Source of the DNA: Ascidia mentula
Lineage: Eukaryota; Chordata; Ascidiacea; Phlebobranchia; Ascidiidae
DNA: 64,000 nucleotides
Assembly: GCA_947561715.1 (NCBI GenBank)
Contig: OX387198.1
Coordinates: 6,076,001 to 6,140,000, forward strand
Direction of reading: 5' to 3'
The translations under genes and the position numbers were made by a program. Shown piece by piece: positions 143-63,164 of the stretch (positions are counted from its first letter, which is position 1; each line of letters starts with the position of its first letter). The notes below the pieces were generated by a model. That model worked only from the letters and a program-made list of their open reading frames with translations. It did no database searches and had not been told where the DNA came from.

Positions 143-3109
143 ATGTTCACCAAGTTTGTGTCTGTTCTGCTCATTATACAAAATGTGGAAGTGTCAATGG
201 CAACAAACGGTAAACCTTTAAAGACATTAAATGTTAATCAAAAGGACCAACAAGACATTGCATTTATCTGTGTTTAGATTGCGGCCTCATATCAAAATCA
301 TTGAATAACACCATATTAACCTTGTCCGATGATCTTGTTGATGCGAACACTGCACAAGAGAAATGTTCGTTGCTTGGTGGAAATCTAGCCATGACCAAAG
401 ACCTATATATTAACGAGTTATTAATTGAAATGACCAAACAATATACAAAAGGTGTGCGAATTTTGTACCTCATAACCAAACAACTTGTCAATAAAGACAT
501 TTTCGGTTTGACACGACTTTGGATTTTCTACGATTTTGTGGGCGGGCATACATTCAGATTTCAAAACTATTCAAGTAACATCAGTTACTGGAAAAGTGCA
601 AAACAACTTGGTGTACTTTGGTACATCGATTTCTTCACAAGGTAATGTAAAGGCAGTCAGTATCATTTAACAATGTTTGGCAAAATTTAAACCTACTTAG
701 AGGTTCATACGATAACTTTATCATTTAGAAGCCATGATGGAAATGAGGAAGAAATATTTTTCTGCGAGGCACTAAATGGGGAAAGAAGAAAGTGGAGATT
801 GACAGTTGGCAAAAACTGTGAACAGGGTGTAAAACACAACTTAACCTGGAATGGTACTAATTGTGTCATTGTTTGCACATAGCAAGAACATTATGTTAAG
901 TGTGTCGCTGGTGAAAATTGAATTTACCAGTTAAACCCCTATAAGTTGACCGGTTATAACATAAGACTGGTTATTTCATTAACTTTCGATTTCACTGCGT
1001 TTTCTATTTCAGGTTGGAATTTACAATTTTCTCTGTTTGCACCAAAAACAGTCAAACCGGGATTCAAGGAAATATACGTGTTCAAAAACAATATCCATTC
1101 TAGCATGGTACGAGAAACCAACCATTCCTACGGAACCTTTAATCAATACGAGCAATACACATTTACTCCAGGTTAAGATAAACTTTGTTATGTCTTTAAC
1201 ATTGTTAAACGACACAACTCTTTTTCTTCGTTTTAAGATATCAATGTTATGATCGGGGCTCGTTAACAATTCCCAACTTGGAGGTTGGTTTTGGAGCGAC
1301 GGATCTCCTGCAAACTATTCTGTTTCCAACGTTACATCCTGTCAGCAGGGGGCGCTCCATTATGGAGATGGTTGGGAGAAATCGAGTGTTAATTGTGTTG
1401 GACAACCAGCTTACTACGCCTGTCAATTTAAATGTTAGTATGTAACAATGTGTGCGAAATAATGTTTTAAGTTTTGTGTTTAAAACGATTTATTATGTAG
1501 CAAAGTGATGTATCATCCACAATTAACTAAACCTAAAATAACGCAGTAATGTTTCATGCAATGGTATGATTGGCAGGATCGCCCCACTGCGCATGTCCTC
1601 ACTTGTCGATCACAGCTAACGTATCGCGATCAGTTTACAGGCTTCGCAGCCCAAATGTTTTTCAGATCTCGCTACCACTTGTCGGTAAAGACTGACTGAC
1701 TCAGCTAGACTGCAATGCCTGGGCTGGTTAGCCCAACTTTTTGTAACTAAGGGTGTTATTTTGTTGCACAAACAAGTTTTTCTAAGATAAATAACGCGTT
1801 CGTAACAAATGTGAAATATTGTGTTTATTATATTGTTTGATAAAAGCACATCTTCCCATTTCAACTCAGCATACAACAATTTTAAAATCCAACGTATGTA
1901 AAGTCAGTTTCACATAAATACTTTGCAGTTGTTACATCCGTGACGAAAGTCGCAGACAATTCCCCTCTTGTTGTTATTAGCTGGAATGGATTGACATCGC
2001 TTGTCAGGAATCATAACCTTTCTGCTGAGGTAACCCTGACATGCATAATTTCCCAGTAATTTACATTTCCCAGACTTGATATATTTTTAGGTAGAAATCA
2101 CTGTGTTGGAATTAATGCACTCTGTTTACGTGCCTTACGAAAACGCCTCATTTCAATTAACAAACCTGAACTACTCAACAAACTACACATTTCGGGTTGG
2201 TATTTTTCGATGTCTAAATGGGAAAATAACACTATCTTGCGTAAAACTAACGAATGTAAAGTCTATCTTATTTCACCTATTATTTCAAACATTGTCTTAG
2301 CATGTAAATTTCGCATTGTTATCAATAGGTGTCAGCGTTGGTTTCAGGTTGCGTGCAAGAAAACGTCACGACATTCCTGGAGGTTACAACATCGGGTATT
2401 CCCCCAACGACTCACTTCAACCAGAGCAGTAAAATAACATTTGATTATATAAGAGTTAGTTAATTAAGAATTAATATTTCTTGCAGTAACAACTTCATCA
2501 GGATTTGCCAACAACAGTAACAATGTCGAAAACTACATTATCGGTTTGATAATTGGAGTGATTTCGGCTCTGCTTGTTCTCGCAGCTATCCTAGTATTTG
2601 GTTTATTGTTCTATAAACGAAGGTGAATGCGACTGAGTGCACATTAACTTACGATGTAACGCGTATTGTAAATAGGTAATCAACTTACAATTAAATAACA
2701 AGTGTCATTTGTCATCGCATTGCGACGTGCTTTTATTGTGTATTAAGTAGAACATTCAGTGCAGTCAACAACCTGAAGCGTGTAGTTTGGTTGGTCTAGT
2801 TTTATTAAAATTTTATATCGAATTTAAATACAACCAGATACGACATGTCCAAATCAACCAATTTTCAACAAACAATAAATCAACCTGGCGCTTCAGAAAA
2901 ATCTGTCCATAACAAGCTTTCACACAACCCAGCATTAAAAGTGGCAGTCTACCTTTTAACAAACGGTAGGTAACTTTTTATTTTAATAACTGCAGCTGTG
3001 TAATCGTATACAATACTTGATAGAGCATCAAACAACTGACCAGATTACGTACGCCAACGTCCAACCTTCCTCTCATCCACCAAACCACGTGTACGAAAGT
3101 ATGAAGTGA
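143..3109 (+). pseudogene. R1: lectin-like/FN3 receptor with ITIM tail, damaged
   Basis: Twelve-exon receptor of about 500 residues. The signal peptide starts [13 protein letters not shown] (exon 143-209). Lectin-like head exons are about 278-451, 506-641, 729-853, 1013-1171 and 1238-1433. FN3 exons are 1929-2029, 2091-2195 and 2329-2428. The transmembrane exon is about 2487-2622 (IIGVISALLVLAAILVFGLL, then FYKRR), and tail exons are 2838-2965 and 3024-3109. The tail ends with ITYANV (ITIM consensus) and YESMK (YxxM). Two defects are visible against paralogs. One extra A in head exon 6 (CGTTAACAA instead of CGTTACAA near 1260-1266) gives an in-frame TAA. The acceptor before exon 3 reads CG at 504-505 instead of AG. 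The 54-base intron there is open and divisible by 3, so retention would not shift frame. Ligand unknown; inhibitory signalling is inferred from the tail. Confidence 0.75.
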
Positions 3110-4224
3110 CGTAACAGCTTTCTTTACAGGATGAATTTTTGTGACCAATTTTAGTTTGTGTTACGTAACTACTTGCAAACATAGAATTCAAGATATAAAA
3201 ACATTGGTCACATAAACAGCCAGATTAGGTCATTATCGTTCAACATCTCTTTTGCATAGGAATGCGCATTTGTTCAACGCCTGTCTTATCAAGAGCACAG
3301 AAAAGATTACTTGTATTCTCACACGATTCGATCTCGTTTCCGATGTGATATTAATTTCCAACCGCTAATAGTAACATTTTCAATGTGTTTTACTTTTTCG
3401 TTTGTAATGTGTTTTTCCATTCTGTTCAGTTTGACGTAGGATTTCTTTAATGTCCTTGTGTTAAGAATTAGGTTGATTTGAACCTCCATGTAACCAAGAT
3501 GATAATGTGCAGGCGGTATAATATAATGTCCTCACTGTCAGGTGTGTTTGGCTCGTGGTGTTTATTCGGACCGGGAACAAAGAAAAGATGTGTCTGTTTT
3601 TTAAGGTTAACTGTAAGATTTCCATGTTTCGAAATCAATGAAAACAATTCCTTTCCTTTCAAAGTATTATCATGCAGCGCATAGTGTTGTGATTTATTGC
3701 AGCAACATACGTACACATTTCAAACCCCACGCTTTGTTGTGGATTAAATACGCATCTTGTAAAACTCCTTTAACCGGCTCAAGCGGCGACTAAACGTTAA
3801 TTTTTAAACAGCTCAAAGGGTTAAGGAACAACAAGACAGCTCTCTTTCTTATTTTGAATATCGTGAAAACCTGATATCAGTCAATAGTGCAAAAATTATC
3901 ATGCTTTTTTAACCCGTGTGTTCATCCCACAACAAGACGTGGGTTATAAAATATTCACGTGAGTCGCTGCATAAAATCACAACGCAATGCTTTGAGATGT
4001 AATGTTTAGCAAACCTTGTGAAATAAGCCTACTACACATTTCGATGCCAAACCATCGCTCCGTTTCGTTGTTTTATTCTCTAAATCAGTTTTTTCCAGAC
4101 AATGAACGTTGTATATTTTGTTGGGATTAACTTGTATACCGAGGTGGTCTGTACATACAAACGTATCGTTGTTATCAAAACCCAGCGCCATTTCAGAAGT
4201 TGTTGATGCAGCCAGTTGCTGGTA
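3110..4224. other. Intergenic block, duplicated downstream of R2 and before P3
   Basis: I see no gene. The block recurs with small changes after R2 (7883-8800) and before P3 (about 54.5-55.8 kb), so it moved with the gene duplications. Short open frames on either strand are not kept open in all copies. Phrases such as the GTGTTTGGCTCGTGGTGTT stretch recur in most intergenic regions of the window. Confidence 0.5.
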
Positions 4225-4665: not shown

Positions 4666-7600
4666 ATGTTCATCAAGTTTGTGTCAGTTCTGCTCATTAT
4701 ACAAAATGTGGAAGTGTCAATGGCAACAAACGGTAAGCCTTTAAAGACATTAAATGTTAATCAAAAGGACCAACAAGACATTGCGTTTATCTGTTATTAG
4801 ATTGCGGCCTCATATCAAATTCATTAAATGACACCATATTAACTTTGTCCGATGATCTTGTTGATGCGAACATTGCACAAGAGAAATGTTTGTTGCTTGG
4901 TGGAAATCTAACCATGACCAAAGACCTATATATCAACGAGTTATTAATTCAATTAATGACCAAACAATCTACCAAAGATGTGCAAATTCTGTACATCGTA
5001 ACCTAACAACTTGTCAATAAAGACATTTTAGGTTTGACACGAATTTGGATTTTTTATGATTTTGAGGGCGGGGATACATTTAGATTTCAAAACTATTCAA
5101 CTAATGTCAGTTACTGGAAAAGTGCAAAACAACTTGGTGTACTTTGGTACATCGATTTCTTCACAAGGTAATATAAAGACAGCTAGTATTATTTGACAAC
5201 GTTTGGGAAAATCTGAACCTACCTGAAGGTTCCTGATAACCGATTCCGGGAATTATTCCCCATTCCCAACCCATAGATGTAACGATTTCCATCAGTATGG
5301 AAAATATGTTTTCTGAGTTAATATCTTTCATTTGAGACAAATATATTTCGCTATAAAGCATTTTCAGTGTCTGTAAAAACAACTTAAAAAAATAAAGCAA
5401 AGCACTGAAAGCTCATCGCTGTCTTAAGAACTACGATAACTTTGTCGTTTAGAAGCCATGATAGAAATGAGGAAAAAATATTTTTCTGCGATGCACATAA
5501 TGGGGACAGAAGAAAGTGGAGAGTGGTAGTTGGCAATAACTGTGACGTGACTGGTACACATTTTGCTGTAGATTGCAAATGGCCAAAACATAATGTTTGA
5601 CGTTTCTCTCAATCAAATTGACTTACCAGCTAGCCCCCTTAAATTGGAACATAAGAAACATTTATTTTATTACCTTGAACAAACTTAACACCACGTTAAC
5701 ATTTTCTGATTACAGGATGGAATTTACAATTTTCACTGTTTGCTTCAAAAACACTTCAACCGGGATACAAAGAAATATACGTATACGAAAACAATATCTA
5801 TTCGAGCATGCTACGAAATGTCAACCATCCCTACGGCAACTTTAATCAGTCTCGACAATCCACATTTACTCCAGGTTGAGATAAGCATCGTTAAAATCGT
5901 GAACATTCATTAGAAATAACCATCTTGTTATCTTCGTTTTAAGATATTAATGTCATGATCGGAGCTCGTTACAATTCCCTACTTGGTGGTTGGTTTTGGA
6001 GCAATGGATCTCCTGCAAACTATTCTGTTTCCAACGTTACATCCTGTCAGCAGGGGACGCTCCGTCATGGAGATGGTTGGGAGAAATCGAGTGTTGATTG
6101 TGTTGGACAACCAGCTTACTACGCCTGTCAATTTAAATGTTAGTATGTAACAATGTGTGTAAAAAATGATCTAAATTTTGTGTTATTAAAGATTTTATTA
6201 TGTAGCAAAGTGATGTATCATCCACAATAAAGTAACTAAACCTAAAATAACGCAGTAATGTTTCATGCAATGGCATGATTGGCAGGATCGCCCCACTGCG
6301 CATCTCCTCATCTGTAGATCACAGCTAAAGTATCGCGATCAGTTTACAGGCTTCGCAGCCCAAATTTTTCACATCTCGCTCCGGCTTGTCGAGAAACACT
6401 GGCTGATTCAGCTAGGCTGCAATGCCTGGGCTGCGAATCTGGTTAGCCCAGCGTCGGGAGTTCCAACTTTACCAGGAGCTTGATTTTTCGGATCTCGCTC
6501 CGACTCTTGTTGCTTTGCAAAACTTTTTAAAATTAAGGGTGTTATTTTGCTCCACAAAACATGTTATTCTAAGCTAAACAACACTTTCGTAACAAATGTG
6601 AAATATTGGTTTAATATATTGTTTTCAACTCAGCTTATAACAATTTTAAAATCCGACGTATGTAACGTCAGTTTCATATAAATACTTTGCAGTTGTTGCA
6701 TCAGTGACGAAAGTCGCAGGCAATTCCCCTCTTGTTGTTATTAGCTGGAATGGATTGACATCGCTTGTCAGGAATCATAACCTTTCTGCTAAGGTAACCC
6801 TGACATGCATAATTCCCCAGTAATTTACATTTCCCAGACTTGATATCTTTTTAGGTAGAAATCACTGTGTTGGAATTAATGCACTCTCTTTACGTGCCTT
6901 ACGAAAACGCATCCTTTCAATTAACAAACCTGAACTACTCAACAAACTACACTTTTCGGGTTGGTATTTTTCGATATCTAAATGGGCAAATAACACCATC
7001 TTGCGCAAAAACTAACGAATGTAAAGTTTATCTTGTTTCACCTACTATTTCAAACATTGTCTAAGCATGTAAATTTCGCATTGTTATCAATAGGTGTCAG
7101 CGTTGGTTTCAGGTTGCGTGCAAGAAAACGTCAGGACATTCCTGGAAGTTACAACATCGGGTATTCCCCCAACGACACACTTCAAACAGAGCCGTAAAAT
7201 AACACTTAATTATATAAGAGTTAGTTAATAAAGAATTAACATTTCTTGCAGTAACAACTTCAGCAAGATTTGCCACGTCCAACAGTAACAATGTCGAAAA
7301 CTACATTATCGGTTTACTAATTGGAGTGATTTCGGCTCTGCTTGTTCTCGCAGCCATCCTAGTATTTGGTCTATTGTTCTATAAACAAAGGTGAATGCGA
7401 CTGAGTGCACATTAACTTACGATGTAATGCGTATTGTAAATAGGTAATCAACTTACAATTAAATAACAACTGTCATTTGTCTTGGCATTGCGACGTGCTT
7501 TTATTGTGTATTAAGTAGAGCATTTAGTGCAGTCAACAACCTGAAGCGTGTAGTTTGGTTGGTCTAATTTTAATAAAATATTAAATCTGATTTAAATACA

Positions 7601-7882
7601 ACCAGATACGACATGTCCAAACCAACCAATTTTCAACAAACAATAAATCAATCTGGCGCTTCAGAAAAATCTGTCCATAACAATCTATCACACAACCAAG
7701 CATCAAAAGTAGAAGGCTACCTTTTCCCAATTGGTAGGTAACTTTTTATTATTTTTATTCAACTGTAACTGTGTAATCGTATACAATACTTGACAGAGCA
7801 TCAAACAACTGACCAGATTACGTATCCCAACGTCCAACCTTCCTCTCATCCACCAAACCACGTGTACGAAAGTATGAAGTGA
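4666..7882 (+). CDS. R2: lectin-like/FN3 receptor with ITIM tail, one splice-site defect
   Basis: Same twelve-exon plan as R1, predicted type I membrane protein of about 500 residues. Signal peptide [13 protein letters not shown]; head type I ([16 protein letters not shown] in exon 5); intact exon 6 ending at about 6139; FN3 exons near 6693, 6857 and 7095; transmembrane exon near 7252-7391; tail exons near 7604 and 7799-7882. The tail carries ITYPNV (ITIM consensus) and YESMK. Exons 3 to 12 stay open. The donor after exon 2 reads GATGTG at 4977-4982 where paralogs have GGTGTG, so GT is lost. The next GT would shift frame, and retention meets a TAA at about 5004-5006. The gene is therefore either recently disabled or uses a non-canonical donor. 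Intron 3 holds a ~190-base segment that R1 and R6 lack. Confidence 0.7.
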
Positions 7883-9235: not shown

Positions 9236-12200
9236 ATGTTCAACAAGTTTGTGTCAGTTCTGCTCATTATACAAAATGCGGAAGTGTCAATGGCAACAAA
9301 CGGTAAGCCCTCAACGACATTAAATGTTACTCAAAAGGACCAACAAGACATTGCGTTTATCTGTTTTTAGATTGCGGCCTCATATCAACATCATTGAATG
9401 ACACCATATTAACTTTGTTCGATGATCTTGTTGATGCGAACACTGCACAAGAGAAATGTTCGTTGCTTGGTGGAAACCTAACCATGACCGAAGACCTATA
9501 TATCAACGAGTTATTAATTCAATTAATGACCAAACAACATACCAAAGGTGTGCGAATTCTGTACATCGTAACCTAACAACTTGTCAATAAAGACATTTTA
9601 GGTTTGACACGAATTTGGATTTTCTATGATTCTGAGGGTGGGGATACATTTAGATTTCAAAACCATTCAACTAATGTCAGTTACTGGATAAGTGCAAAAC
9701 AACTTGGTGTACTTTGGTACATAGATTTCTTTACAAGGTAATGTAAGGCAGCTAGTATTATATGACAACGTTTGGCCAAATCTAAACCTACCTGAAGGTT
9801 CCTTATGACCGATTCCGGGAATTATTTTTCCCAACCCATAGTTGTAACGATTTCCTTCCTTATGGAAAAATATGTTTTCTGGGTTAAAATCGTTCATGTG
9901 AGACAAATATATTTCGCTATAATGCTTTTTTAGTGACTGTAGAAACAAGTTAAAAAAATTAAAGCACAAGCACCAAAAAGCTCATCGCTGTGTTAAGAAC
10001 TGCGATAACTTTGTTATTTAGAAGCCATGACAGAAATGAGGAAGAAATATTTTTCTGCGATGCATTTAATGGGAAAAGAAGAAAATGGAGAGTGGTATTT
10101 GGCAATAACTGTGATGGATATGGTACACATTTTGCTGCAGATTGCAAATGGCCAAAACATAATGTTTAACGTTTCTCTCAAGAAAATTGACTTACCAGCT
10201 AGCCGTATTAAGTTGTAACATAAAAACAATTTATTTCATTACTTTGAACAAACTTAACACCACGTCAACATTTTCTGATTACAGGATGGAATTTACAATT
10301 TTCCTTGTTTGCTTCAAAAACACTTCAACCGGGATACAAGGAAATATACGTATACGAAAACAATATCCAATCTAATATGCTACGAAATGTTAACCATCCC
10401 TACGGAATATTTAATAAGTATCGACAATTCACATTTACTCCAGGTTGAGATAAGCTTCGTTAAAATCTTGAACATTCAGGAAAAATAACAATCTTGTATT
10501 CTTCGTTTTCAGACATCAATGTTATGATCGGGGCTCGTTACAATTTCCAACTTGGTGGTTGGTTTTGGAGCGACGGATCTCCTGCAAACTATTCTGTTTC
10601 CAATGTTACATCCTGTCAGCAGGGAGTGCTCCATTATGGAGATGGTTGGGAGAAATCGAGTGTTGATTGTGTTGGGCAACCAGCTTACTACGCCTGTCAA
10701 TTTAAATGTTAGTATGTAACAATGTGTGTCAAAAATGATCTAAATTTTGTGCCTAAAAAGATTTTATTATGTAGCAAAGTGATGTATCACCCGCAATTAA
10801 CTAAACATAAAATAACGCAGTAATATTTCATGCAATGGCATGATTGGCAGGATCGCCCCACTGCGCATCTCCTCACTTGTAGATCACAGCTAACGTATCG
10901 CGATCAGTTTACAGTCTTCGCAGGCTAAAATTTTTTAGATCTCGTTCCGGCTTGTCGAGAAAAACTGGCTGACTCAGCTAAGCTGTAATGCCTGGGCTTC
11001 GATGCTGGTTAGTTCATCGTCGTGAGATCCAACTTTACCAGGAGCTTGATTTCTCAGATCTCGCACCGACTCTTGTTGCTTTGTCAAACGTTTTTTTGTT
11101 AAAGGTGTTATTTTGTTGCAAAAAAACAAGTTTTTCTGAGCTAAATAACGCTTTCGTAACAAATGTGAAATATTGGTTATTATATTGTTTGGTAAAAGCA
11201 CATCTTCCCATTTTAACTGAGCATTTAACAATTTTAAAATCCAACGTATGTAACGTGTAATACTTTGCAGTTGTTGCATCAGTGACGAAAGTTGCAGGCA
11301 ATTCCCCTCTTATTGTTATTAGCTGGAATGGATTGACATCGCTTGTCAGGAATCATACTCCTTTATTCTAAGGTAACGTAACTTTACCAGACATGATTCT
11401 CCAGTAATTTACATTGCCGAGACTTGTTACATTTTAGGTAGAAATAACTGTATTGGAATTAATGCATTCTGTTTACGTGTCTTACGAAAACGCATCAATT
11501 CAATTAACAAACCTGAACTACTCAACAAACTACACTTTTCGGGTTGGTATTTAATGGCATGTAGTATTACCGTGTCTAATAAGAGACAAACGAAAGCAAA
11601 TTCTCTCCCTTTATTGTCAATAGGTGTCAGCGTTGATTTCTGGCTGCGTGCAAAAAAACGTCACGACATTCGTGTCGGTAACAACATCGGGCATTCCCCC
11701 AACGACTCACTTCAACCAGAGCAGTAAAATAACGATTAAATATACAAGCATTTGTTAATGAGGAATTAATATTTATTGCAGTAGCAACATCAACCGGATT
11801 TTCCGAGTCCAACAGTAACAATGTCGAAAACTATAATCCCAGTTTACTAATTGGAGTGATTTCGGCTCTGCTTGCTCTCGCAGCCATCCTAGTGTTTGGT
11901 TTATTGTTCTATAAACGAAGGTGAATGCAACTGATTACACATTTTACCTACGATGTAAAGGGTATTTAGAATTGCATGGCATGTTTCATTTCCTTCGTTG
12001 TGCGATGTGTACGTCCTATTACCTAATTAGAAGTTTTGCTACATCAAATAACGCCACGTTGGTTGTTTGGTTTGTTTAGTTTTAACAAAAACATGTATCC
12101 ACGCACTTGTGAACGTTTTGACGAATTAAAATACAAACAGGTACGACATGTCCAAACTAACCTTTTTGTAACTATCAAAAAATCCATCAGGCGATCCAGG

Positions 12201-12416
12201 AAAATCTGACCTTGCCAATGTATCACATCAGCGAGTAACGGAAGAGGAAGGCAACCTTTCATCAAACAGTTAGTAGCGAGGTTTATTTTAATAACCGTTA
12301 AACTATGTGAATGTGAAATGCACTTGACAGAGCATCAAACAACTGGCCAGATTACGTATGCCAACGTCCCACCTTCCTCTCATCAACCAAATCACGTGTA
12401 CGAAAGTATGAAGTGA
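9236..12416 (+). pseudogene. R3: lectin-like/FN3/ITIM receptor, damaged
   Basis: Same exon order as R1 and R2. Signal peptide [13 protein letters not shown]; head type I; exon 6 about 10514-10708; FN3 exons start near 11271, 11438 and 11625; transmembrane exon near 11782-11922; tail exons near 12139 and 12331-12416, with ITYANV and YESMK. Two lesions are clear against the near-identical R6. FN3 exon 7 has one extra base near 11356-11372, giving TTC TAA. Tail exon 11 reads TTG TAA near 12168 where R6 reads TTG GAA. The last ~2.2 kb (about 10405-12660) is nearly identical to 51727-53985 of R6, so R3 and R6 exchanged or duplicated this part recently and the lesions are young. Confidence 0.75.
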
Positions 12417-14433: not shown

Positions 14434-21632
<7,199 letters not shown>

Positions 21633-22783
21633 CGAACTTTCAGTTGTCAATACATTGATATCTTTTGCATTATTATTAATCAATCATTTTTTCGATGTAA
21701 TGTTCTGTTTTTTTATTTATATTATGTGATTATACGCAATTTTGATTTGTTTTGTTCACACGGTAATTTATAATGTGCTTTTATAACTGTTGTTTTGTTT
21801 ATCTTCATGTAAAATTATGTAGAAACTGTAGTTCTTTGTTCCGCTTCCCTTTAAAGAAGTATCAGAAAATTAAATGTCCTCAAACCAAACAAATCTTTTG
21901 TAAAAAGGAATGTCCAAATGATTTTTGGCGTTAAATCTGCTTCTACATAAAAAATATCGAGGTCCTTTAAACTTATCTTCATCTTGGGTATCAACAGATA
22001 ATTACAGTCGTTCAAAACTTATGAATTCAGAGTTAGATCATAATTTGAGCAGGAAACAGGGGAAGTGGTTCATTCAAACATTTTCCCGGGACTTTCTCCT
22101 TTACCTCTCATCCTGAAAATCTCTGCTAGTAACCATAGAAACGTTGGAGTGTCTATATGGATTAATGAAAATATATACTCAGTTTTACAAATAGTGTGTT
22201 TTAGTATTCCTTGTGTAGTTAACTATTTGCACAACACGTGTGTATGCTCCCACAGTCCAGTCGATCTCACAGCCAAGCACTTTCGACTGTGAAGATTCTA
22301 CGTAAATGCAGGTAGAACAGTTTGCAACCACAGCCATACAACAATGAAGAAAAATACAAGTATTGTCGCTTTTTGCCAAAATTATTTTTCAAACTAAAAT
22401 GTAAGTAAGCACTTCAAAGCTATGGGCTGTCATACAGCCTTGTGAGAAACAGCATGCAGTGGCCAAAAACAAGACATACTCAAATAGTTTGTAGCAGTTA
22501 AAAAATTTTGTTCGTGTTTTACTTTCGCAGATGACCGTCTGTAACATATTGTCGCTGACTGTTAAATTGGCGAATGCGTCACACCAGCCCAATGCATGGC
22601 ACAATACAGGCAGAAACAGGGGTTTGTCATTTGCATAACTTTTGCTTACAAATACAATCGTGGAAAGCGTCATTAAAGCGCGACTCAAATACATCTCCAT
22701 TCGCAAGCTATTTGTTTTTTGGTCAGGTCAGTTTTTAGGTTTGGTCTCAAACACTACGCTAAAGGTAATCCTAAATTTCTGAG
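21633..22783. other. Intergenic spacer P1 to R4
   Basis: Contains the 3' flank of P1. Homologous text follows P3 (63165-64000) and, in part, P2 (39514-39900) and the orphan exon region (43150-43400). No convincing gene. The - strand open frame at 22389-22706 has no recognisable domain, and the matching region after P3 is cut by the window end, so I leave it uncalled. Confidence 0.4.
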
Positions 22784-27334: not shown

Positions 27335-27385
27335 ATTGCCACAGATTTACAATATTACTACTTTATATTGTAAATCTGTGGCAAT
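27335..27385. repeat. Perfect 21-base inverted repeat (hairpin)
   Basis: The left arm 27335-27355 (starting ATTGCCACAG) and right arm 27365-27385 are perfect reverse complements around a 9-base spacer. It could be a tiny palindromic element, a replication-slippage product or a structured transcript. I see no target-site duplication. Confidence 0.8.
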
Positions 27386-47200: not shown

Positions 47201-47536
47201 CATTTTCCAGTGTCGTGTTCAGTGAAAGGTGATTCGGCCACAGACATAACACAAGTCTTTTGTCCATATGGATGCGGAAAGGAACCTGTTTATGGAACTG
47301 GAATCTACAGCATCAAGTCATCGGTGTGTAGCGCTGCCATACACGCCGGGAAACTAACAGGTTTGACGTAGATAATAATGTCAGTGTTTGTTTGTGAAAT
47401 GTGGGATTTTTTTGCAGGAAATGGAGGTGAAGTGAGATTTTATGCAGCCCTAGGGCAAAAAAACTATGTTGGATCCACAAAAAACGGTGTGACGAGTCTT
47501 GCAAGTGGGTTTGCCACTTCATCGTTTCAATTTTAG
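44283..47536 (+). CDS. L2: secreted lectin-like/FN3 protein with two LCCL domains, intact
   Basis: Thirteen exons give an uninterrupted 562-residue protein: 44283-44349 (signal peptide), 44428-44604, 44674-44809, 44871-44986, 45099-45260, 45333-45527 (exon 6), 45792-45886, 46042-46146, 46279-46357 (FN3), 46690-46851, 46972-47097, 47211-47360, 47418-47536. The last four encode two LCCL domains. The first shows LLCPANCW, VCLAAMQD and NRYIGGSRNGV. The second shows VFCPYGCGKEP, SSVCSAAIHAGK and YVGSTKNGV, then a stop. There is no transmembrane segment, so it should be secreted. LCCL domains occur in cochlin and Limulus factor C, where they are tied to innate recognition. The head is type II like R5 and P2. 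L2 may be a soluble partner or competitor of the R and P receptors; that is inference. Confidence 0.85.
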
Positions 47537-48329: not shown

Positions 48330-49343
48330 TTAATGACATGTTTATCACCTCACCTTGGTTTGAGGCACCAGCACAGTCCCACTACAATAAGCGCCACAGC
48401 CACAAGAACAGTCGAAAAACGACCAGAGATAGTTGTCAGGAAACAACCAAAAGTTTAAACATCGCAGAAAATTATACCTGGACGGTTTGCTATCGTGTCG
48501 TAAGCAGATTTCGCGTTGAATACCGAAAGTCGACACCATCACAGCCGGAAAGTGACGCTGTGACTTGAGCAACATGAAAGCATGTCCCCCAAAAAATTAA
48601 ACTTATTATGAAAATTTATTTTCAAATAGGTCACAACGCCTATCTGTTTTAAATATGTAAAGTTTTTCCACTTGTTTCTTTGTTGGATGTAACAGGTTTC
48701 GACAGTTACTAACCATGATACTGTAGTTTGTAAAAATATTTAAGTTTTCAATCTCAACCGACAGATTTTCATAAGGAACGTGAACACTCCGCAGCCATCC
48801 AACCACGCTGATCTCCATCTGAAAACAAAATTCTAAAAATCGCAAATTCTCTTCAATTTAAATTTAAATTAACATAAAACACACAATAGAAAGAACAAAA
48901 AGTGTGGTCTTTTGACCGAATACCTTTTTAAAAGTTTTAAAATATAAAAAAAATTACCTCAGCCTAGAGATTTTGATTCGCAATCAATTGATCCAGTTCA
49001 GTCCATCTAATAGCAACAATGGATAAGTTACACGGATATTTATCCACAGAAGCGATAAATGACGTGGCCGATCAAGATACAAAGGAAACAAAACAAAAAC
49101 GTATCATATTGTCAAACTTGCAAAGCTCAGTAAAACCCGAGGAGAAATTCCAGAATTTATTGAAAAAAACTCCACTCGATTTGACGCTCGAATGCTTTCA
49201 ACCATCTCCATAATGGAGCGCTCCCTTGCTGGCAGGATGTAACATTGGAAACAGAATAGTTTGCAGGAGATCCATCGCTCCAAAACCAACCACCAAGTTG
49301 GGAATTGTAACGAGCCCCGATCATAACATTGATGTCTTAAAAT
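48330..49343 (-). pseudogene. Inverted receptor fragment: exon 6, FN3 and transmembrane
   Basis: The only family member on the - strand. Reading from 49343 down: exon 6 (49342 to about 49180, with [16 protein letters not shown] but one extra base after CQQG), FN3 exon 7 (about 49025-48962, [15 protein letters not shown], with a TAG near its end), exon 8 (about 48822-48716, SVHVPYENLSVEIENLN), exon 9 (about 48563-48490, TASLSGC) and a transmembrane exon (about 48455-48348, STVLVAVALIVVGLCWC, LKP). Head exons 2-5 and the tail are absent. FN3 is closest to the P-gene type. Its inversion shows that the array has rearranged by more than simple tandem duplication. Confidence 0.75.
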
Positions 49344-50730: not shown

Positions 50731-53700
50731 ATGTTTAATCAGATAATATCGTCTCTTGTCATTCTCGAAAGTGTTTGGTTGTCAAATGCAACATCAGGTA
50801 AGCTCTGATAAAAACCATTAGCAAAAGAGATAAGAAGCTTTAAGATTCATCTATGTTTAGATTGCGACTTCACATTAACATCATTGAACGATGCCATATT
50901 AACTTTGTCTAATGATCTTGTTGATGCAAATACTGCACAAGAAAAGTGTTCGTTCCTTGGTGGAAATCTAGCCATTACCAAAGACCAGAATATAAATGCG
51001 ACTTTAATTCAACTAATGACCAAACAATATACAAAAGGTGTGCACTCGGTAAAAATTGTGGATGATTAATAAAACAATTCAACAGTAAATATATTTTAGG
51101 TTTAATGCGACTTTGGATTTTCTATGATTTTGTGGGCGGGCATACATTTAGATTTCAAAACTATTCAAGTGACGTCAGCTATTGGAAAAGTGCAAAACAA
51201 CTTGGTGTTCTCTGGTACATCGATTTCTTCACAAGGTAGCTTGTGAAGGCAGCCAGTATAATTTACAACGTTTGGCATATTTTGAACCTACTAGGAGGTT
51301 CATCACGAGAACTTTATCATTTAGAAGCCATGATAGAAATGAGGAAGAAATATTTTTCTGCGAGGCACTAAATGAGGATAGAAAAAAGTGGAGAGTGGGA
51401 GTTGGCAATAACTGTGAACAGCGCAAACCTAAATGGAATGGTACAAATATTGCTGTAGTTTGCACATAATCAAAACATTTTGTTAATTTTTTTTCTAAAG
51501 AAAATTGACTTATCAGCTTACCGAATAAGTTGTAACATAAGAAATATTTATTTCATTACCTTGAACAAACTTAACACCACGTTAACATTTTCTAATTACA
51601 GGATGGAATTTACAATTTTCCTTGTTTGCTTCGAAAACACTTAAACCGGGATACAAAGAAATATACATGTTCGAAACCAATATCTTATCTAGCATGCTAC
51701 GCAATATTAACCATTCGTACGGAATCTTTAATAAGTATCGACAATTCACATTTACTCCAGGTTGAGATAAGCTTCGTTAAAATCTTGAACATTCAGGAAA
51801 AATAACAATCTTGTATTCTTCGTTTTCAGACATCAATGTTATGATCGGGGCTCGTTACAATTTCCAACTTGGTGGTTGGTTTTGGAGCGACGGATCTCCT
51901 GCAAACTATTCTGTTTCCAATGTTACATCCTGTCAGCAGGGAGTGCTCCATTATGGAGATGGTTGGGAGAAATCGAGTGTTGATTGTGTTGGGCAACCAG
52001 CTTACTACGCCTGTCAATTTAAATGTTAGTATGTAACAATGTGTGTCAAAAATGATCTAAATTTTGTGCCTAAAAAGATTTTATTATGTAGCAAAGTGAT
52101 GTATCATCCACAATTAGGTAACTAAACATAAAATAACGCAGTAATGTTTCATGCAATGGCATGATTGGCAGGATCGCCCCACTGCGCATCTCCTCACTTG
52201 TAGATCACAGCTAACGTATCGCGATCAGTTTACAGTCTTCGCAGGCTAAAATTTTTTAGATCTCGCTCCGGCTTGTCGAGAAAAACTGGCTGACTCAGCT
52301 AAGCTGTAATGCCTGGGCTTCGATGCTGGTTAGTTCATCGTCGTGAGATCCAACTTTACGAGGAGCTTGATTTCTCAGATCTCGCACCGACTCTTGTTGC
52401 TTTGTCAAACGTTTTTTTGTTAAAGGTGTTATTTTGTTGCAAAAAAACAAGTTTTTCTGAGCTAAATAACGCTTTCGTAACAAATGTGAAATATTGGTTA
52501 TTATATTGTTTGGTAAAAGCACATCTTCCCATTTTAACTGAGCATTTAACAATTTTAAAATCCAACGTATGTAACGTGTAATACTTTGCAGTTGTTGCAT
52601 CAGTGACGAAAGTTGCAGGCAATTCCCCTCTTGTTGTTATTAGCTGGAATGGATTGACATCGCTTGTCAGGAATCATAACCTTTCTTCTAAGGTAACGTA
52701 ACTTTACCAGACATGATTCTCCTGTAATTTACATTGCCGAGACTTGTTACATTTTAGGTAGAAATAACTGTATTGGAATTAATGCATTCTGTTTACGTGT
52801 CTTACGAAAACGCATCAATTCAATTAACAAACCTGAACTACTCAACAAACTACACTTTTCGGGTTGGTATTTAATGGCATGTAGTATTACCGTGTCTAAT
52901 AAGAGACAAACGAAAGCAAATTCTCTCCCTTTATTGTCAATAGGTGTCAGCGTTGATTTCTGGCTGCGTGCAAAAAAACGTCACGACATTCGTGTCGGTA
53001 ACAACATCGGGCATTCCCCCAACGACTCACTTCAACCAGAGCAGTAAAATAACGATTAAATATACAAGCATTTGTTAATGAGGAATTAATATTTATTGCA
53101 GTAGCAACATCAACCGGATTTTCCGAGTCCAACAGTAACAATGTCGAAAACTATAATCCCAGTTTACTAATTGGAGTGATTTCGGCTCTGCTTGCTCTCG
53201 CAGCCATCCTAGTGTTTGGTTTATTGTTCTATAAACGAAGGTGAATGCAACTGATTACACATTTTACCTACGATGTAAATGTATTTAGAATTGCATGGCA
53301 TGTTTCATTTCCTTCGTTGTGCGATGTGTACGTCCTATTACCTAATTAGAAGTTTTGCTACATCAAATAACGCCACGTTGGTTGTTTGGTTTGTTTAGTT
53401 TTAACAAAAACATGTATCCACGCACTTGTGAACGTTTTGACGAATTAAAATACAAACAGGTACGACATGTCCAAACTAACCTTTTTGGAACGATCAAAAA
53501 ATCCATTAGGCGATCCAGGAAAATCTGACCTTGCCAATGTATCACATCAGCGAGTAACGGGAGAGGAAGGCTACCTTTCATCAAACAGTTAATAGCGAAG
53601 TTTGTTTTTTAATTACCGTTAAACTATGTGAATGTAAAATGCACTTGACAGAGCATCAAACAACTGACCAGATTACGTATGACAACGTCCCACCTTCCTC

Positions 53701-53737
53701 TCATCAACCAAATCACGCGTACGAAAGTATGAAGTGA
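50731..53737 (+). CDS. R6: lectin-like/FN3 receptor with ITIM tail, readable
   Basis: All twelve exons are open. Signal peptide MFNQIISSLVILESVW (from 50731); head exons near 50862-51031, 51101-51235, 51327-51440, 51602-51760 and 51834-52025; FN3 exons near 52592, 52759 and 52945; transmembrane exon near 53103-53241; tail exons near 53461-53588 and 53652-53737. The tail reads ITYDNV (ITIM consensus) and AYESMK; a further tyrosine lies in EEGYLSS. The first half (to about 51.73 kb) is distinct from other R genes, including the signal peptide. The second half is almost identical to R3 but without R3's stops. A second tail pair follows at 54263-54534 and could serve as an alternative 3' end. About 500 residues, type I membrane protein. 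Confidence 0.78.
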
Positions 53738-53985
53738 CGTAACAGCTTTCTTTACGGGATGGATTTAAATTTTTCGAACATCAGTCAAGGATATGGTGAT
53801 AAATTCTAAACAACCATTTTAGATTTTAAATATTTTCCAATACGTTTAATATTTGTAATGTTTTCCATTCTGCGCAGTTTTGAGCAGAATTTCTTCAATG
53901 TCATTTTGTTTGTAATTAAAAAATTTGATTTCAACCTTCATATATCCAAGATGATCATTTTCTGGCTGTACAATAAAAAACATTG
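51727..53985 (+). repeat. Recent ~2.2 kb duplication shared with R3
   Basis: From the end of head exon 5 to the 3' flank this stretch is nearly identical, introns included, to about 10405-12660 in R3. Flanking parts are much less alike. This is the youngest exchange in the window. Confidence 0.85.
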
Positions 53986-54262
53986 ACTGTTAGTTGTGTT
54001 TGACTCGAGGTGTTTATTCGGACTGGGAGCAGAACTAGGATGAGTCAATGTAATTTCTAGGCCTAATTTAGTCCCAGTACACGACTCAACGCCAAGTCCG
54101 GCGACAGCAAAATATCATCGTTTGGAAATAACATTTTATTGGCACAAAGCTTTGTTTTTCGTGTTTGTTTAAATTCTGCTTCCAGTCGCATTAAAGTATT
54201 ATAGTTCTGCTCATGGCGTTGTGATTTTTTTAAAATGTTATGTCGGACTTAAATACAACCAG

Positions 54263-54534
54263 ACACGACATGTCCAAACCAATTAATTTTCAACAAACAA
54301 TAAATCAATCTGGCTCTTTAGAAAAATCTTTCCATAACAATATATCACACAACCCAGCATCAAAAGTGGAAGGCCAGCTTTCGCCAAACGGTAGGTAGAT
54401 TTTTATTTTAATAGCTGTAACTGTGTAATCATATACAATACTTGACAGAACATCAAACAACTGGCCAGATTACGTATGACAACGTCCAACCTTCCTCTTG
54501 CCATCAAAATCACGTGAATGAAAGTATGAAGTGA
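54263..54534 (+). pseudogene. Orphan R-type cytoplasmic tail exons behind R6
   Basis: Two exons, 54263-54390 and 54449-54534, match tail exons 11 and 12 of R2 and have their acceptor and donor sites. No head or transmembrane exon precedes them. They read HDMSKPINFQQTINQSG at the start, keep ITYDNV, and have VNESMK in place of VYESMK, so the YxxM tyrosine is lost. At about 54225-54240 R3/R6-type spacer changes to R2-type intron 10, a clear recombination joint. They could be dead, or spliced to the R6 transmembrane exon as an alternative tail, since frame and phase match. Confidence 0.7.
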
Positions 54535-56265: not shown

Positions 56266-59200
56266 ATGTTCACTAAGTTTGTGTCAGTTCTGCTCATTGT
56301 ACAAAATGTGGAAGTGTCAATGGCAACAAACGGTAAGCCTTTAAAGACATTAAATGTTAATCAAAAGGACCAACAAGACATTGCGTTTACCGGTGTTTAG
56401 ATTGCGGCCTCATATCAAAATCATTCAATGACACCATATTAACTTTGTCCGATGATCTTGTTGATGCGAACACTGCACAAGAGAAATGTTCGTTGCTTGG
56501 TGGAAATCTAACCATGACCTATGACCTATATATCATCGAGTTATTAATTCAATTAATGAACAAACAATATACCAAAGGTGTACGAATTTTGTACCTCATA
56601 AACAAACAACTTGTCAATAAAGACATTTCAGGTTCAACACGACTTTGGATATTCTATGATTTTGTGGGCGGGGAGACATTCAGATTTCAAAACTCTTCAA
56701 CTTCAACTAACGTCAGTTACTGGAAAAGTGCAAAACAACTTGGTGTACTTTGGTACATAGATTTCTTCACAAGGTAATGCAAAGGCAGCTAGTATTATAT
56801 GACAACGTTTGGCCAAATCTGAACCTACCTGAAGGTTCCTGATAACCGATTTCGGGAATTATTCCCCATTCCCAACCCATAGTTGTAACGATTTCCATCC
56901 TTATGGGAAAATATGTTTTCTGGGTTAATATCTTCCATGTGAGACAAATATATTTCGCTATGAAGCATTTTCAGTGTCTGTAAAAACAACGTAAAAAATA
57001 AAGCACAAACACTAAAAGCTCATCGCTGTCTTAAGAACTGCGATAACTTTGTCATTTAGAAGCCATGATGGAAATGAGGAAGAAATATTTTTCTGCGACG
57101 CACCTAAGGGGGACAGAAGAAAATGGAGAGTGGTAGTTGGCATTAACTGTGACGGGCATGGTACACATTTTGCTGTAGTTTGCACATAATCCGAACATTT
57201 GTTAAATCTTTTTCTAAAGAAAATTGACTTACCAGTTAGCCGTATTAAGTTGTAACACAAGAAACATTTATTTCATTACCTTGAACAAACTTAACACCAC
57301 GTTAACATTTTCTGATTACAGGATGGCATTTACAATTTTCCTTGTTTGCTTCAAAAACACTTCAACCGGGATACAAAGAAATATACGTATACGAAAACAA
57401 CATCTATTCTACAATGCTACGAAATGTTAACCATCCCTACGGCACCTTCAATCAGTCTCGACAATCCACATTTACTCTAGGTTGAGATAAGCTTCGTTAA
57501 AGTCGTAACCATTCATTAGAAATAACAATCTTGTTATCTTCGTTTTCAGACATCAATGTTATGATCGGTGCTCGTTACAATTTCCAACTTGGTGGTTGGT
57601 TTTGGATCGATGGATCTCCTGCAAACTATTCTGTTTCCAACGCTACATCCTGCCAACAGGGGGCGCTCCATTATGGAGATGGTTGGGAGAAATCGAGTGT
57701 TGATTGTGTTGGACAACCAGCTTACTACGCCTGCCAATTTAAACGTATGTATCACGGTAATGCTACTATGTAAAAAGCAAGTAATGTTAGTGACATTTGA
57801 AAATATTTTTTTTGAGTTGTTCCAGTTTGTCTCAAATTTTGGCGTAGTTTTACGTCTATGTATCTACAGTTTATATTGTTTTAATTCATTGCACGTGTGC
57901 TTTCAGTTATTGCTAAAGTGAAAAATATCCATGCAACTCATCCATTGTTGCTATAAGATGGACTGGACTGGATCAATTTATTGAGAATCAAAATCTTTCG
58001 GCTCAGGTAAATTGGTTCGTGACAGTTAAGTAACCGGCATAACGGGTTTTGATAAAGTGTGAATGTTGGTGGATCATCAGTTGATGTAATTGCAAGAGAG
58101 TGATTTATTTTAATGATTTTATTCAACCAAACACACTCTGCATTCGGATTTTCTTTTTCGTCTCTTTTTCCAGGTTGAAGTCAGCTTGGTCGAACCGAAA
58201 CAGACGTTTCTCCTGCCTTATGCGAATCTATCGGTTCAGACTGAAAACTTGAACATATCAACGAACTACGGGATTAAAGTTAGTATTTTGTTTTTTATAT
58301 TCTGTTTATTGTAAATAAAGAAAAATAATATAGTAAAACTGAAAGATTTATGCTGCAGAATCCCAAACATATTAATAAAGCTTTGAAAGTATCAACAAAG
58401 TCATTAAACGATGTCATTAACAGGTATCAGCGTTTCTTTCTGGTTGCGTAAATGCTAATGTTTCTACATCTCTGGCGGTGTCGACTTTAGGCAATCCCCC
58501 AGAAAGCTGCTTTCAGAACGGTAACCAAATGCTTATGTGATTTAATGCGTTGATTGATGGTTAACTGTACCCGACAGGAAGTAACAACGCTACTGGCAGC
58601 AACAGCAACACGATCCTGATACTTTGTGTTATTTTGGTGATTATTGCGGTTTTGGCAGCTATTTGTATCGGATTATGGTACAAACGAAGGTAAAGTTATG
58701 AACACTTGTAAATGAAACTTGTAATAGTTACGCATCGTAAGCATTTGCAGTATTGGTGCTTTGCACGTAATTATTTGATGCGTTTTAATCATCATTGTTC
58801 GTTTCCGCATAAAGGGCTTTAAATATTTTGGAAACCCCGATGAAAGCTACTATTATGTTTGCAGAAAATCAAACCAGAGCGAACCTCAAGCAAACGAATT
58901 GACACCTTCTCCCACAGCATTTGCTGGGAATAAAGGTAATGTTGATCGTTAACGGATTATATTGAGTTGATATAAACGGCCCTGTCCATTTCAGAAATAC
59001 ATTTTATCTTATTGGTATTATAAATATGACTAATGGTGCAGCTATTAACAAAATCGCAAATATTGCAGGCACACAAACATTACATAAAAGCAAAAATAGT
59101 TAACATACGATTTAAATACTTACTTGCGGCTTAGATGCAGTTCAGCCAAATGGAGTTTATCAAAGTTTGTCGGTTGACGCAGACACGTCAAAAAACAACA

Positions 59201-62200
59201 ATCATAAAGAGCTATTCAAAGTTTACGAGACCAACATTGCAGCGGATTTTCATTTGTTTAACGAAGAGTTTAGGGTGGGTTATAGTTTTCAAAAACTGTT
59301 GTTTAAGCGATAGAACAATTGGAAAATATACAAAGGAGAACCCAACGTCTTCATCAAACGATATGCCTAGATAATCTTGGAACTTTAATTTCCTAAAGGT
59401 TACGTTACTTCATACAGCCTTCTCTATTCGCACAGGAAACAGTATAATGCGTGGGTTTCACTGATTCGGCCTTTCACTGGCTTCATTCCACAGCTGTACA
59501 GTTTAAGAATGGGATAAGTTTGTTTGGACAGTAGCTGGATGCCTAAGGCAGTTCATTCTACGTGGGTTGATGCAAAATCAACACACGTTCTTTCGTGCAG
59601 GTTCTTCACAAACAAAGCAAAGAGAGTCAACAACCCTATGGGGTTTCACAACTTCCAGAGAACGCCACGCGAAACCGATACAAGAATATTTACCCGTGTA
59701 AGACATAAATGACTCAAAACAGCAAATTTCCAGTTTGCAAAAAAAAAAATTTTGACAGACGACCATGCCCGAGTAATACTGATGGAAAAGGAAGACAACG
59801 ATTACATAAACGCGGCTTATATGCCGGGTTACAGCAACGAGAAAAAGTTCATCGCTACCCAAGGCCCTAAGCAGGAAACAATCAATGATTTCTGGCTGAT
59901 GGTTTGGCAAGAAAACTCAACAATAATTGTGATGCTCACTGGTCTGATAGAAAAGGGAAAGGTTGGTCATTTCGCCAGAATTGCGTTGAACTAGATATGC
60001 AGAGAAATCTAAATATACGCATAAAAGTGCACTGCGTGGAATAGGGAATTGCTAATCGGGGAAATTGCCAGCAGAATATTTGTAAGTTGCCATTAGTACA
60101 ACGAAACAACAAATTCTTGCCACAAACACCTACAAAAAATAAGTGTAATAAGATATTGGTTTTGCCGGGCATTTGTGCACATAAACTAGTTCGTCGACAC
60201 TAAAATCGACCTACAAATCATATCCATCTCATGCCATGCATAGATGTGTAGTAATATATGAAGCGCTCGGTCTGGGCGTGGGCACGGGTTGCAAAACAAC
60301 GACAGTATCACATGTTGTTCCACCAACTGGGTATCGACGTCATAATAACAGCACATCACTGTATGTTGACTGGGAAACCGGGACAAACCATTAAACCACG
60401 ACTTCGGAAACAACTTAAACACGAAAAATGTAAAACCAGATCTATGATGATGAAAATACATTCCACAACACCTTATTTATCAACATAAGAAACCTAATTG
60501 TCAACAATATCACTCTAGACCGACTGAGTTTGCCCGACAAACAAACGAATATGCAAGAAAGTAAGAAAAGGAAAACAAACAAATATCAAAAATCTCCAAT
60601 ACTAACAAACGATCCATATACTAATTCGGTTTGTCCTGATGATTCCTTTCCTTAACCTACTATAAATACGTGTTTACAGGCAAAGTGCGAACAATATTGG
60701 CCAAGTGTGGGATCACATCTGGAAGTAACGGCTGATTATGGAATTCAAACAGACCAAGAAGTTCTCTTAGGTGGAATATACATGCGAAAATTTGTTTTAT
60801 GCCAAGGAGAGGTACGGCACATGTGGATTCATTGTGGGTTTCAGATACATATGGGCTTGTTTCAGGAAAAACGTATGGTTACCCAACTCCAATACACAAC
60901 CTGGCCAGACCATGGAGTTCCTGTCACAACAACAAACATGATCTACCTACGTAAGATGGTGGAAGATTTACACAAGATTTCAGCTCCTATAATTGTTCAC
61001 TGCAGGTACAGAAAACAGAGGATAAGAATTATCAGTTTTTATCATGACCAGCAAGCGAACTGAAAGTCTATTAAATATACTGCACAAAAATAAAATAGGT
61101 TTTTTCATTTACCTGTTTGTGTTGTGGATTTTGGCTTTCACACAAAATTTGGGTAAAGTAATGTTGCAACGAACGTGACTCAATCGTCACGTGTTTTGTT
61201 TAAGTGCTGGTGTTGGTCGGTCTGGAACTTATATTGCCATGGATATTTTGTTCGATGAGTTGGACGACAAAGGAACTGTCGACGTCCCGCAGACTGTACT
61301 AAGGATGAGGGCAAACAGAACAGACATGATCCAAAACTTGGTAAATAACCAATGTGTGATTAAACTTGAGGTGTGATAAATATTTTGCTTTTGATCTGCA
61401 GAAACAATACATATTCCTGTATAAGTTGTTAGTGGAACGAGAGGGTCTACAGATGGAAACAGACAGAGATGCAATTGAACTTCAGTCAATGAGTTCTGAT
61501 GAAATGTAAGAACCCTACAAAAAATGTTCAACAATTAACGTCGTTAACTCATTGTACTTTTAGTGCATGCAACTTTCAAGGTAGATTAATCGTATTTAAA
61601 GAGCCTTTTTGTTCTTTTTCAGAACAAGAATTCAAGAATCTGAGTACAAAATCTTGTCCGACTGGCGATACGGAAAGGAGTGGCTTGAAGGAAACCTGAA
61701 GTTAACCACTTGTATGATTACGTTTATTTCATGCCTCTGTTCTTCTAGAATTGACTACCATTATTCTTACACAAATATAGATAAAAACACTGCCCTCGGA
61801 ATTTGGGATAAAGATATTGAAGGACTAAGGAGTTTCAATGCATCGTTCATACATGTAATAATATAAGTTGTTGTTTTTGACAAATATTGGCGATAAATAT
61901 AAAAAATACAAATATGCATGGTCTACTTGCCAGGAAATGGACGCTTCTGAGTGTTTCATTGCTGCCCAAACCCCACCAAATGACCAGATGGAGTATTTTT
62001 GGAAAATGGCTGTACAAAATGGCACGCGTATGTTTGTGGATTTGAACATGGCAGTGAAGGTACAACCGTTGCAAAACAAATAACATTTGGGGATTAAATG
62101 ACATATTTTGTACTTTTTCTAGGTTTCTCAAGATAAACCTTTACGATATGGCGACGTTACTCTTACTGTGGAAGAACTTTCGGAAAGTCACTCATATAAA

Positions 62201-63164
62201 TTAGCCACAATTGTGATTACATCTTCATCAAAATCTTTCGTAAGTTTGACAAAAACAAACTAAAAGGTAGATTGTATTTAATGATGAAGAAAGTTTTGTA
62301 AAATGCGTTTGCAAAATGCCACTTTTTTAATGTTTAAAAGTCATGTCAAAATTTTAAGTGAATATCATTGTAAAATATAGTTTAAAACACCTAAAGGTTT
62401 TTACCACTTGCGTTCAGACTGACACTCTGATGACATTCGTACAAGTAAAGGGATGGAGTGAAGTTAAGAAACCTCTAAAGGAAGTGGAGTTTGTTGAAGT
62501 GATTGAAGCCATGCAAGGGATGAAGAGAGATAGGAACTGTCGTTGTGTGTTGGTCATGTGCAGGTAAACAAATACCTAAATATTTACGAATATATCAATA
62601 AAACCTTAAGCCTAAAAGAAATAAGAAAAGCCTGTAACCATTAACGTAGCCATGTAGAAAGAGCCATTTCCCCTTCCAAAGTTTTAGAAAAACATTCGAA
62701 CCTCGCCAAAACGTCACGCTGACTGCGATACTAGCCATAACGCATAACTTCTTTGTCTCTTTAAATTTGCGGTGTAGTCATATCAGTATTTTATGTTTTC
62801 GTATAGAAATTTGATGGTACTGCACAAAGTTTTTCAGAGTACAGTAAACAAAGCTTTACACACTATTACATTTGATATTGATGCAGCAATGGCAGAACGA
62901 GGACTGGTACTTTTATTGCTCTGACAAGAATACTTGAACGTCTGAAGACTCAGCAAAGGGTGGACGTTTTCCGAACTGTGAAAGATTTACGAGACATGAG
63001 ACCAAACATGCTGGATGACGAAGTAATTACGTTTTAACTACTTCCTCATATACCGCTGTTAAACTTTATTGCATGACTTTTATTTTAAGGTGCTCTACAA
63101 GTATTGCTACTCCGTGGTTTTGAAATACTTGGATGATTTCAGCACATACTCCAACTGCAAATGA
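56266..63164 (+). CDS. P3: lectin-like/FN3 receptor protein tyrosine phosphatase, one frameshift in FN3
   Basis: Same 25-exon plan as P1. Signal peptide [16 protein letters not shown]; head type I; exon 6 about 57551-57745; stalk [10 protein letters not shown] with transmembrane exon about 58579-58690. PTP D1 includes [19 protein letters not shown] (near 59797), WPDHGVP (near 60902) and [11 protein letters not shown] (60.99/61.21 kb). D2 has [10 protein letters not shown] and ends YSNCK at 63164. FN3 exon 7 (from about 57907) has one A fewer than P1 in the run after GTG, which shifts frame to an early stop. All other exons traced are open. Skipping FN3 exons 7-9 (phase 1 to phase 1) would restore the frame. 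The loss sits in a homopolymer, so sequencing error or polymorphism is possible. Intron 2 (56578-56631, 54 bases) is open in frame. Confidence 0.75.

Follow-up and report, generated by a model that had tools for sequence, protein, structure and literature searches.

A Tandem Array of Genes with Three Kinds of Ending

This study concerns a tandem gene array in the ascidian Ascidia mentula, whose genome has a size of 196 Mb and contains introns; the window is the whole 64-kb stretch of DNA that was analyzed, contig OX387198.1 (C2):6076001-6140000. The mitochondrial code agrees with a tunicate origin: the COX1 frame contains AGA/AGG at 18 codons, 16 of them in COX1 proper and many at glycine positions of familiar COX1 motifs, and reads TGA as tryptophan, as in the ascidian code. 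The window contains 11 tandem head-bearing genes, all on the plus strand and extending from an ATG at position 143 to a TGA at position 63164, that have a signal peptide, five head exons, and FN3 in common. Six of them end in a transmembrane (TM) segment followed by a tail with an immunoreceptor tyrosine-based inhibitory motif (ITIM), three in a TM segment followed by tandem protein tyrosine phosphatase (PTP) domains, and two in a pair of LCCL domains without a TM segment (table 1), confirming the proposal in an initial annotation of this DNA that about ten tandem genes join a common head and FN3 to three endings. Linkage within the array switches across exon 6: sequence on its 5' side tracks the head and sequence on its 3' side tracks the tail.

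Tandem units were recognized by self-comparison of the window, which revealed a repeated exon set and similarity of many introns as well. All counts are based on gene models from a home-made splice-aware gene finder that was trained on the evident exons and includes a homology bonus; some of these models fuse neighboring units or modules (units 10, 12, 26, 31, and 38) or force splices. In the wider array, which comprises the window and the next 200 kb (264 kb in total), we modeled 41 units, that is, 23 ITIM, 12 PTP, and 5 LCCL units and 1 fragment. Exon-by-exon homology across these units excludes chance resemblance. By hydropathy, a TM segment is evident in 34 of the 35 ITIM and PTP models, and signal peptides, judged by hydropathy only, were found in 7/8 models (values of 1.1–1.8), with one model with an extended start falling short. 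Six of the 11 genes in the window look intact: units 3, 6, 7, 9, and 10 pass a strict integrity test, and unit 4 fails it only by its in-frame poly-Asn stalk.

Table 1. Features of the 64-kb Window
Feature	Position	Strand	Remarks
Unit 1, head + FN3 + TM + ITIM/YxxM tail	143..3109	+	Probable pseudogene with a frameshift in exon 6 and an altered exon-3 acceptor
Unit 2, ITIM-type	4666..7882	+	Fits only with irregular splicing
Unit 3, ITIM-type	9236..12416	+	Regular frame and phases
Unit 4, PTP-type, tandem PTP	14434..21632	+	Poly-Asn stalk ahead of TM
Unit 5, ITIM subtype b (VTYTNV)	22422..27373	+	In-frame stop at 25566-25568; doubtful gene, signal exon uncertain
Unit 6, ITIM-type	27965..30598	+	Regular; 515-aa predicted receptor
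Unit 7, PTP-type	31846..39513	+	Regular; 1018 aa; D1 signature and WPD; Pfam Y_phosphatase twice
Unit 8, LCCL-type	40007..42010	+	Without head exons 4-6 and FN3 exons 1-2
Unit 9, LCCL-type with complete head and FN3, two LCCL domains, no TM	44283..47536	+	562 aa
Exon 6 of unit 9, representing the almost constant 195-bp exon between phase-1 introns	45333..45527	+	
Inverted fragment, exon 6 + first FN3 exon	48951..49342	-	
Unit 10, ITIM-type	50731..54534	+	Model fuses two copies of tail exons
Unit 11, PTP-type	56266..63164	+	One-base shift in first FN3 exon; looks broken

Heads and Tails Have Separate Histories

Phylogenetic analysis of head exons 3–5, on which the head clades are defined, divided 31 units into two deep clades (100/100), each of which includes ITIM and PTP tails. 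Domain matches and gene models support the sharing of heads among the three endings, but the single head envisaged in the initial annotation is in fact two deep head clades. Tail labels change 10 times on the head tree (minimum 3), compared with a mean of 12.2 for shuffled labels; 14/200 shuffles were as low, and such permutation p values are guides only because the units are related by descent. The linkage, FN3-tree, and exon-6 site comparisons include 30 of the 31 full heads, the composite unit U31 having been dropped, and three of these have a short modeled exon 6. For these 30 units, the FN3 tree requires 3 tail changes, which is the minimum, and 4 head changes, and the head tree requires 10 tail changes and 1 head change.

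The switch is evident in the sequence on both sides of exon 6. The identity gain in the 20 bp immediately upstream is 0.229 for units with the same head and 0.060 for units with the same tail, and immediately downstream the values are 0.082 and 0.262, respectively. Within exon 6, neither effect departs from zero by more than 0.005 in the 5' or the middle 60-bp piece, and the 3' piece leans slightly to the tail (same-head 0.020, same-tail 0.061). Among pairs whose exon lengths differ by no more than 30 bp, exon 6 is approximately 92% identical across head clades and the flanks are 43–46% identical, versus 30% for random 60-mers. The exon is 195 bp long in 25/30 units and is flanked by phase-1 introns (35/35 exon-6 starts and 33/35 starts of the next exon). 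We do not favor synonymous constraint on this exon, as its ratio of nonsynonymous to synonymous divergence (dN/dS) of 0.27 is close to those of exons 2 and 3 (0.30 and 0.29), with both rates low.

Divergence of heads and tails was also compared between units. For 25 pairs of PTP units from different head clades, which involve 10 of the 12 PTP units, synonymous divergence (dS) is 0.171 in the PTP exons and averages 2.88 in the heads, a value at or near saturation with saturated pairs set to 3. Conversely, heads with a dS as low as 0.015–0.12 bear different tails, with the closest such pair involving the composite U31. The linkage switch together with the high identity of exon 6 regardless of head or tail therefore suggests that heads and effectors recombined at, or were homogenized through, exon 6. 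The pattern fits crossover or conversion through an island of homology, and it also fits selection for a shared contact surface. In mammalian CEACAM genes, a homogenized exon scarcely reaches into the introns (PMC2832619).

The ITIM, Phosphatase, and LCCL Endings

The ITIM and PTP classes were assigned by similarity to motif-bearing exons, and counts of motif retention are therefore partly built in. Each of the 23 ITIM-class models in the 264-kb array, including the 6 from the window, has the motif [I/V]TY[A/D/P/T]NV, the class being assigned by such exons, and YxxM is also found in 18 of 19 models of subtype ITIMa. ITIMs recruit SH2 phosphatases; however, the tyrosine of this motif is also compatible with a Grb2-type YxN motif, and inhibitory signaling is the likely but not the sole reading of the ITIM-class tails. 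A search of the genome identified SH2 domains but no SH2-PTP gene among the best candidates, the only ones scored. FN3 matched the Pfam fn3 model only in the ITIM model among three spliced models scanned, and below the Pfam cut-off (E=0.017).

In the spliced model of unit 7, two stretches match Pfam Y_phosphatase (E=6e-114). Like receptor-type PTPs in general, the PTP units combine a TM segment with PTP domains that have HC(X)5R and WPD in D1; this signature is kept in 12/12 PTP units, a class that required a match to these exons. In U39, the model leaves an extra stretch between HC and AGVGRSG of the D1 signature, and U28 lacks the TM segment and most of the head. D2 has CSNGRTRTG in 12/12 units; in the models inspected, the usual His is replaced by Met, and D2 may therefore be a weak phosphatase domain. 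A search of PDB sequences found the tandem PTP to be closest to receptor PTPs alpha, epsilon, S, and LAR, which likewise have a TM segment, tandem PTP domains, an active-site D1, and an altered D2; unlike these, the array units have a lectin-like and FN3 ectodomain, belong to a multigene array, and have ITIM and LCCL relatives. The dN/dS of the PTP exons is 0.13–0.20 in three exons (12 units) and 0.27 in a fourth, which includes 3 relics. The length of the exon encoding the TM segment and stalk varies by multiples of three in five PTP units, and in unit 4 this exon (16773-17172) has a long poly-Asn coding repeat in the predicted extracellular stalk.

Relic PTP-D1 exons lie downstream of all six ITIMb modules. 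In unit 5, the ITIMb part is followed by such relics and the model runs on into them. No relic PTP exons were found behind the 18 ITIMa units examined, of 19. We infer from the relics that at least the ITIMb kind derived from a receptor phosphatase by loss of the catalytic part.

Unit 9 matches Pfam LCCL above the cut-off in two stretches (E=3e-31) and has no TM segment by hydropathy: the maximum after the signal peptide is 1.01, versus 2.79–3.64 in seven ITIM and PTP models. Its product is predicted to be secreted. Among seven LCCL units found in the array as delimited by exon-6 matches (C2:5.96-6.32 Mb), two have a full head, one of them with an early stop in the last exon; four modeled units lack head exons 4–6, and a fifth has no nearby match to exon 6. 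The LCCL output proposed initially is represented by unit 9, but five of the seven LCCL units lack these head exons.

The Head Domain

Pfam Lectin_C was matched below the cut-off by the PTP and LCCL models (units 7 and 9; E=0.12 and 0.013). At E values up to 10, it was matched by 10/10 aligned heads, with a best value of 8.7e-4 and a score for the first member of 16.9 bits against a cut-off of 22.6. We compared profiles of the two halves of the head with four C-type lectin domains from the same genome using hhalign, with 20 column shuffles as a control. The half encoded by exons 2–3 obtained 91% (best of 20 shuffles 1.1%) and the half encoded by exon 6 obtained 12–16% (shuffles up to 2.1%). 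The lectin-like character that had been ascribed to the head is weakly supported for the domain as a whole. The head may comprise one interrupted lectin-like domain or two such domains. PDB matches of the head are weak, no sushi or Ig match in Pfam was obtained with the three full models or the ten heads, and scans against NCBIfam (head of unit 7), Rfam, and for tRNAs gave no matches.

Related Loci

Searching the genome with exon 6 yielded 95 matches including fragments, of which 55 are in the present array (C2:5.96-6.32 Mb), 31 in a second array (C2:4.17-4.35 Mb), and 9 elsewhere. In the parts of this second array (C2:4.17-4.35 Mb) that were examined, a head arranged in the same way precedes tandem PTP in one unit, whose juxtamembrane part contains VTYENL, and YMNV occurs in two further open frames behind heads. 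Four matches to the LCCL exon of the array (82–92% identity) lie approximately 0.5 Mb beyond it on the opposite strand. There, C2:6823001-6833000 (10 kb, minus strand) contains two models with two LCCL domains each; the one scanned additionally has a pentraxin/laminin-G-like domain, and the second begins with a signal-like peptide. The LCCL ending of the array probably came from these genes.

A Proposed Paired-Receptor-Like Family and Alternative Explanations

Paired receptors are known chiefly in vertebrates, as inhibitory versus activating tails. As in paired immune receptor families, the array clusters related ectodomains on different signaling tails and includes members with a candidate ITIM, the motif being found in 23/23 ITIM-class models. 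Mammalian CEACAMs are similar in that a shared ectodomain is placed on different tails, one exon is homogenized with sharp borders, ITIM tails are present, and the genes are clustered, but they have Ig heads and ITAM (immunoreceptor tyrosine-based activation motif) or ITAM-like partners, and the available part of the source does not mention an intrinsic phosphatase ending (PMC2832619). In CD300A/C, conversion keeps the ectodomains alike while the tails diverge; unlike in the array, there is an Ig domain and the activating partner signals via an adaptor, and a PTP ending is not mentioned in the part available (PMC12447643). The Xenopus FcR-like family resembles the array in intergenic exon recombination, tyrosine-motif tails, and cDNAs for putative secreted forms and differs in its Ig heads, with "tyrosine phosphatase" absent from its main text (PMC2413239). 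Among tunicates, the Botryllus fester family, the fester co-receptors, and fuhc-sec similarly comprise multigene receptors with ITIM tails and neighboring secreted and TM proteins, and CD45-like receptor PTPs are expressed in ampullae; however, the fester co-receptors have Ig and sushi heads, neither of which Pfam matched in the three full models or ten heads of the array, and "lectin" is absent from the text and a phosphatase on the same head is not mentioned in the part available (PMC12065747). A system with all three outputs was not recognized in open-licence literature surveyed by titles and the beginnings of abstracts, a scope outside which most subscription journals fall.

We read the array as a paired-receptor-like family akin to mammalian CEACAMs that would additionally have an intrinsic phosphatase and an LCCL ending acquired by capture. 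The explanation that we favor, and regard as fairly probable, is a germline multigene family of tunicate recognition proteins, both cell-surface and secreted, with several outputs in which head and effector cassettes were recombined via exon 6. The head cassette (signal to exon 5) and the effector cassette (FN3 onward) would have recombined repeatedly in the germline with exon 6 as the point of exchange or homogenization, and related heads would feed an ITIM tail recruiting SH2 phosphatases, a receptor bearing an intrinsic phosphatase, or a soluble LCCL protein with a possible opsonin or decoy role. The sequence itself establishes the architectures, the D1 catalytic motifs, the ITIM motifs, the linkage switch across exon 6, and the PTP relics behind ITIMb. 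We infer, from the domains predicted, surface display, sharing of ligands, inhibitory signaling, and a role in defense or self-recognition, that is, an immune or allorecognition function. On this explanation, the array would pair related heads with two phosphatase-type outputs, one in trans through the ITIM tail and one in cis through the intrinsic receptor phosphatase, and the third output would be an LCCL ending common to the array and a neighboring gene cluster. The relic phosphatase exons behind ITIMb suggest a route from receptor phosphatase to ITIM receptor, a step in immune-receptor evolution.

Several results weigh against this explanation. The strict integrity test is passed by only 13/41 units, although five further PTP units fail it solely by stalk length changes in multiples of three, and the LCCL ending is intact in one modeled gene. 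A lectin fold for the whole head domain is weakly supported. Among 18 informative sites in exon 6 (27 rows with a full exon 6, 192 columns), of which sites 33 and 189 lean to the head and 168 to the tail, no clean breakpoint or gradient was found. Positive selection on the heads was not found overall among 13 disjoint nearest pairs, for which the ratio of the proportions of nonsynonymous and synonymous differences (pN/pS) is 0.44 for exons 2–5 and 0.70 for exons 4 and 5; single pairs exceed 1 (U21/U31, 3.64; U07/U32, 1.40). Finally, no clear activating partner is seen in the models of the 264-kb array: none of the 34 TM-bearing models has a charged residue within the most hydrophobic 19 residues, and none of the 23 non-PTP tails has a hemITAM, with one loose ITAM-like match in U25.

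Exon 6 itself may be a germline adaptor. With its 195 bp and phase-1 introns, it would allow cassettes to recombine while the ligand-contacting fold is kept whole, so that one animal lineage would build receptors of combinatorial make-up that recruit a phosphatase, contain one, or are released into circulation; we put this forward tentatively, as plausible but short of probable. A somewhat unlikely but compatible reading is that exon 6 encodes a shared ligand contact kept alike by conversion and selection and is not a crossover hinge as such, the exchange of heads and tails being mostly due to a few older events. Ligands usually bind the second half of the C-type lectin fold, which exon 6 resembles in weak matches. 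Ectodomain conversion in CD300A/C provides a precedent (PMC12447643). However, a ligand contact alone leaves the linkage switch across exon 6 unexplained, and where a single head change on the FN3 tree would be expected without exchange, at least 3 more are needed.

The family as a whole could also function outside immunity, for example in gamete recognition or in adhesion during development, processes that likewise employ large receptor families and receptor PTPs. The closest solved structures are those of receptor PTPs alpha, epsilon, S, and LAR, whose roles extend well beyond immunity, but defense would better account for the ITIM tails and for an LCCL ending with relatives among neighboring genes, one of them with a pentraxin-like domain, and we consider a non-immune role unlikely. 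Even less likely is plain tandem duplication and decay of receptor-phosphatase genes, with loss of the phosphatase from some copies and unusual ends acquired by others but no coordinated multi-output function: the relic PTP exons behind ITIMb tails, the many failures in the integrity test, and the short LCCL units without exons 4–6 are as expected from decay, but the kept ITIM and PTP motifs and a dN/dS of 0.13–0.27 in PTP exons point to constraint, and head and tail histories differ. Mixing at the transcript level, in which read-through or trans-splicing at the phase-1 sites around exon 6 joins one head to several tails in a manner comparable to the clustered protocadherins, would suit a tandem arrangement on one strand with intron phases that hardly vary but is very improbable, as a head and a tail are both present in most units and germline exchange alone explains the patterns.

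Similar Exons Elsewhere in the Genome

On a separate contig, C52, a lone unit at 16.805-16.807 Mb consists of exon 3, exon 6, and an ITIM tail. Large arrays of PTP-domain exons without exon-6 matches are located on C72 (16.9-17.4, 5.3-5.5, and 0.65-0.74 Mb) and C67 (4.8-5.0 Mb). Clusters of many C-type lectin exons are found on C1 (22.4-27.6 Mb), and dense tandem arrays of LCCL exons on C72 (5.12-5.18 Mb) and C69 (1.89-1.91 Mb).

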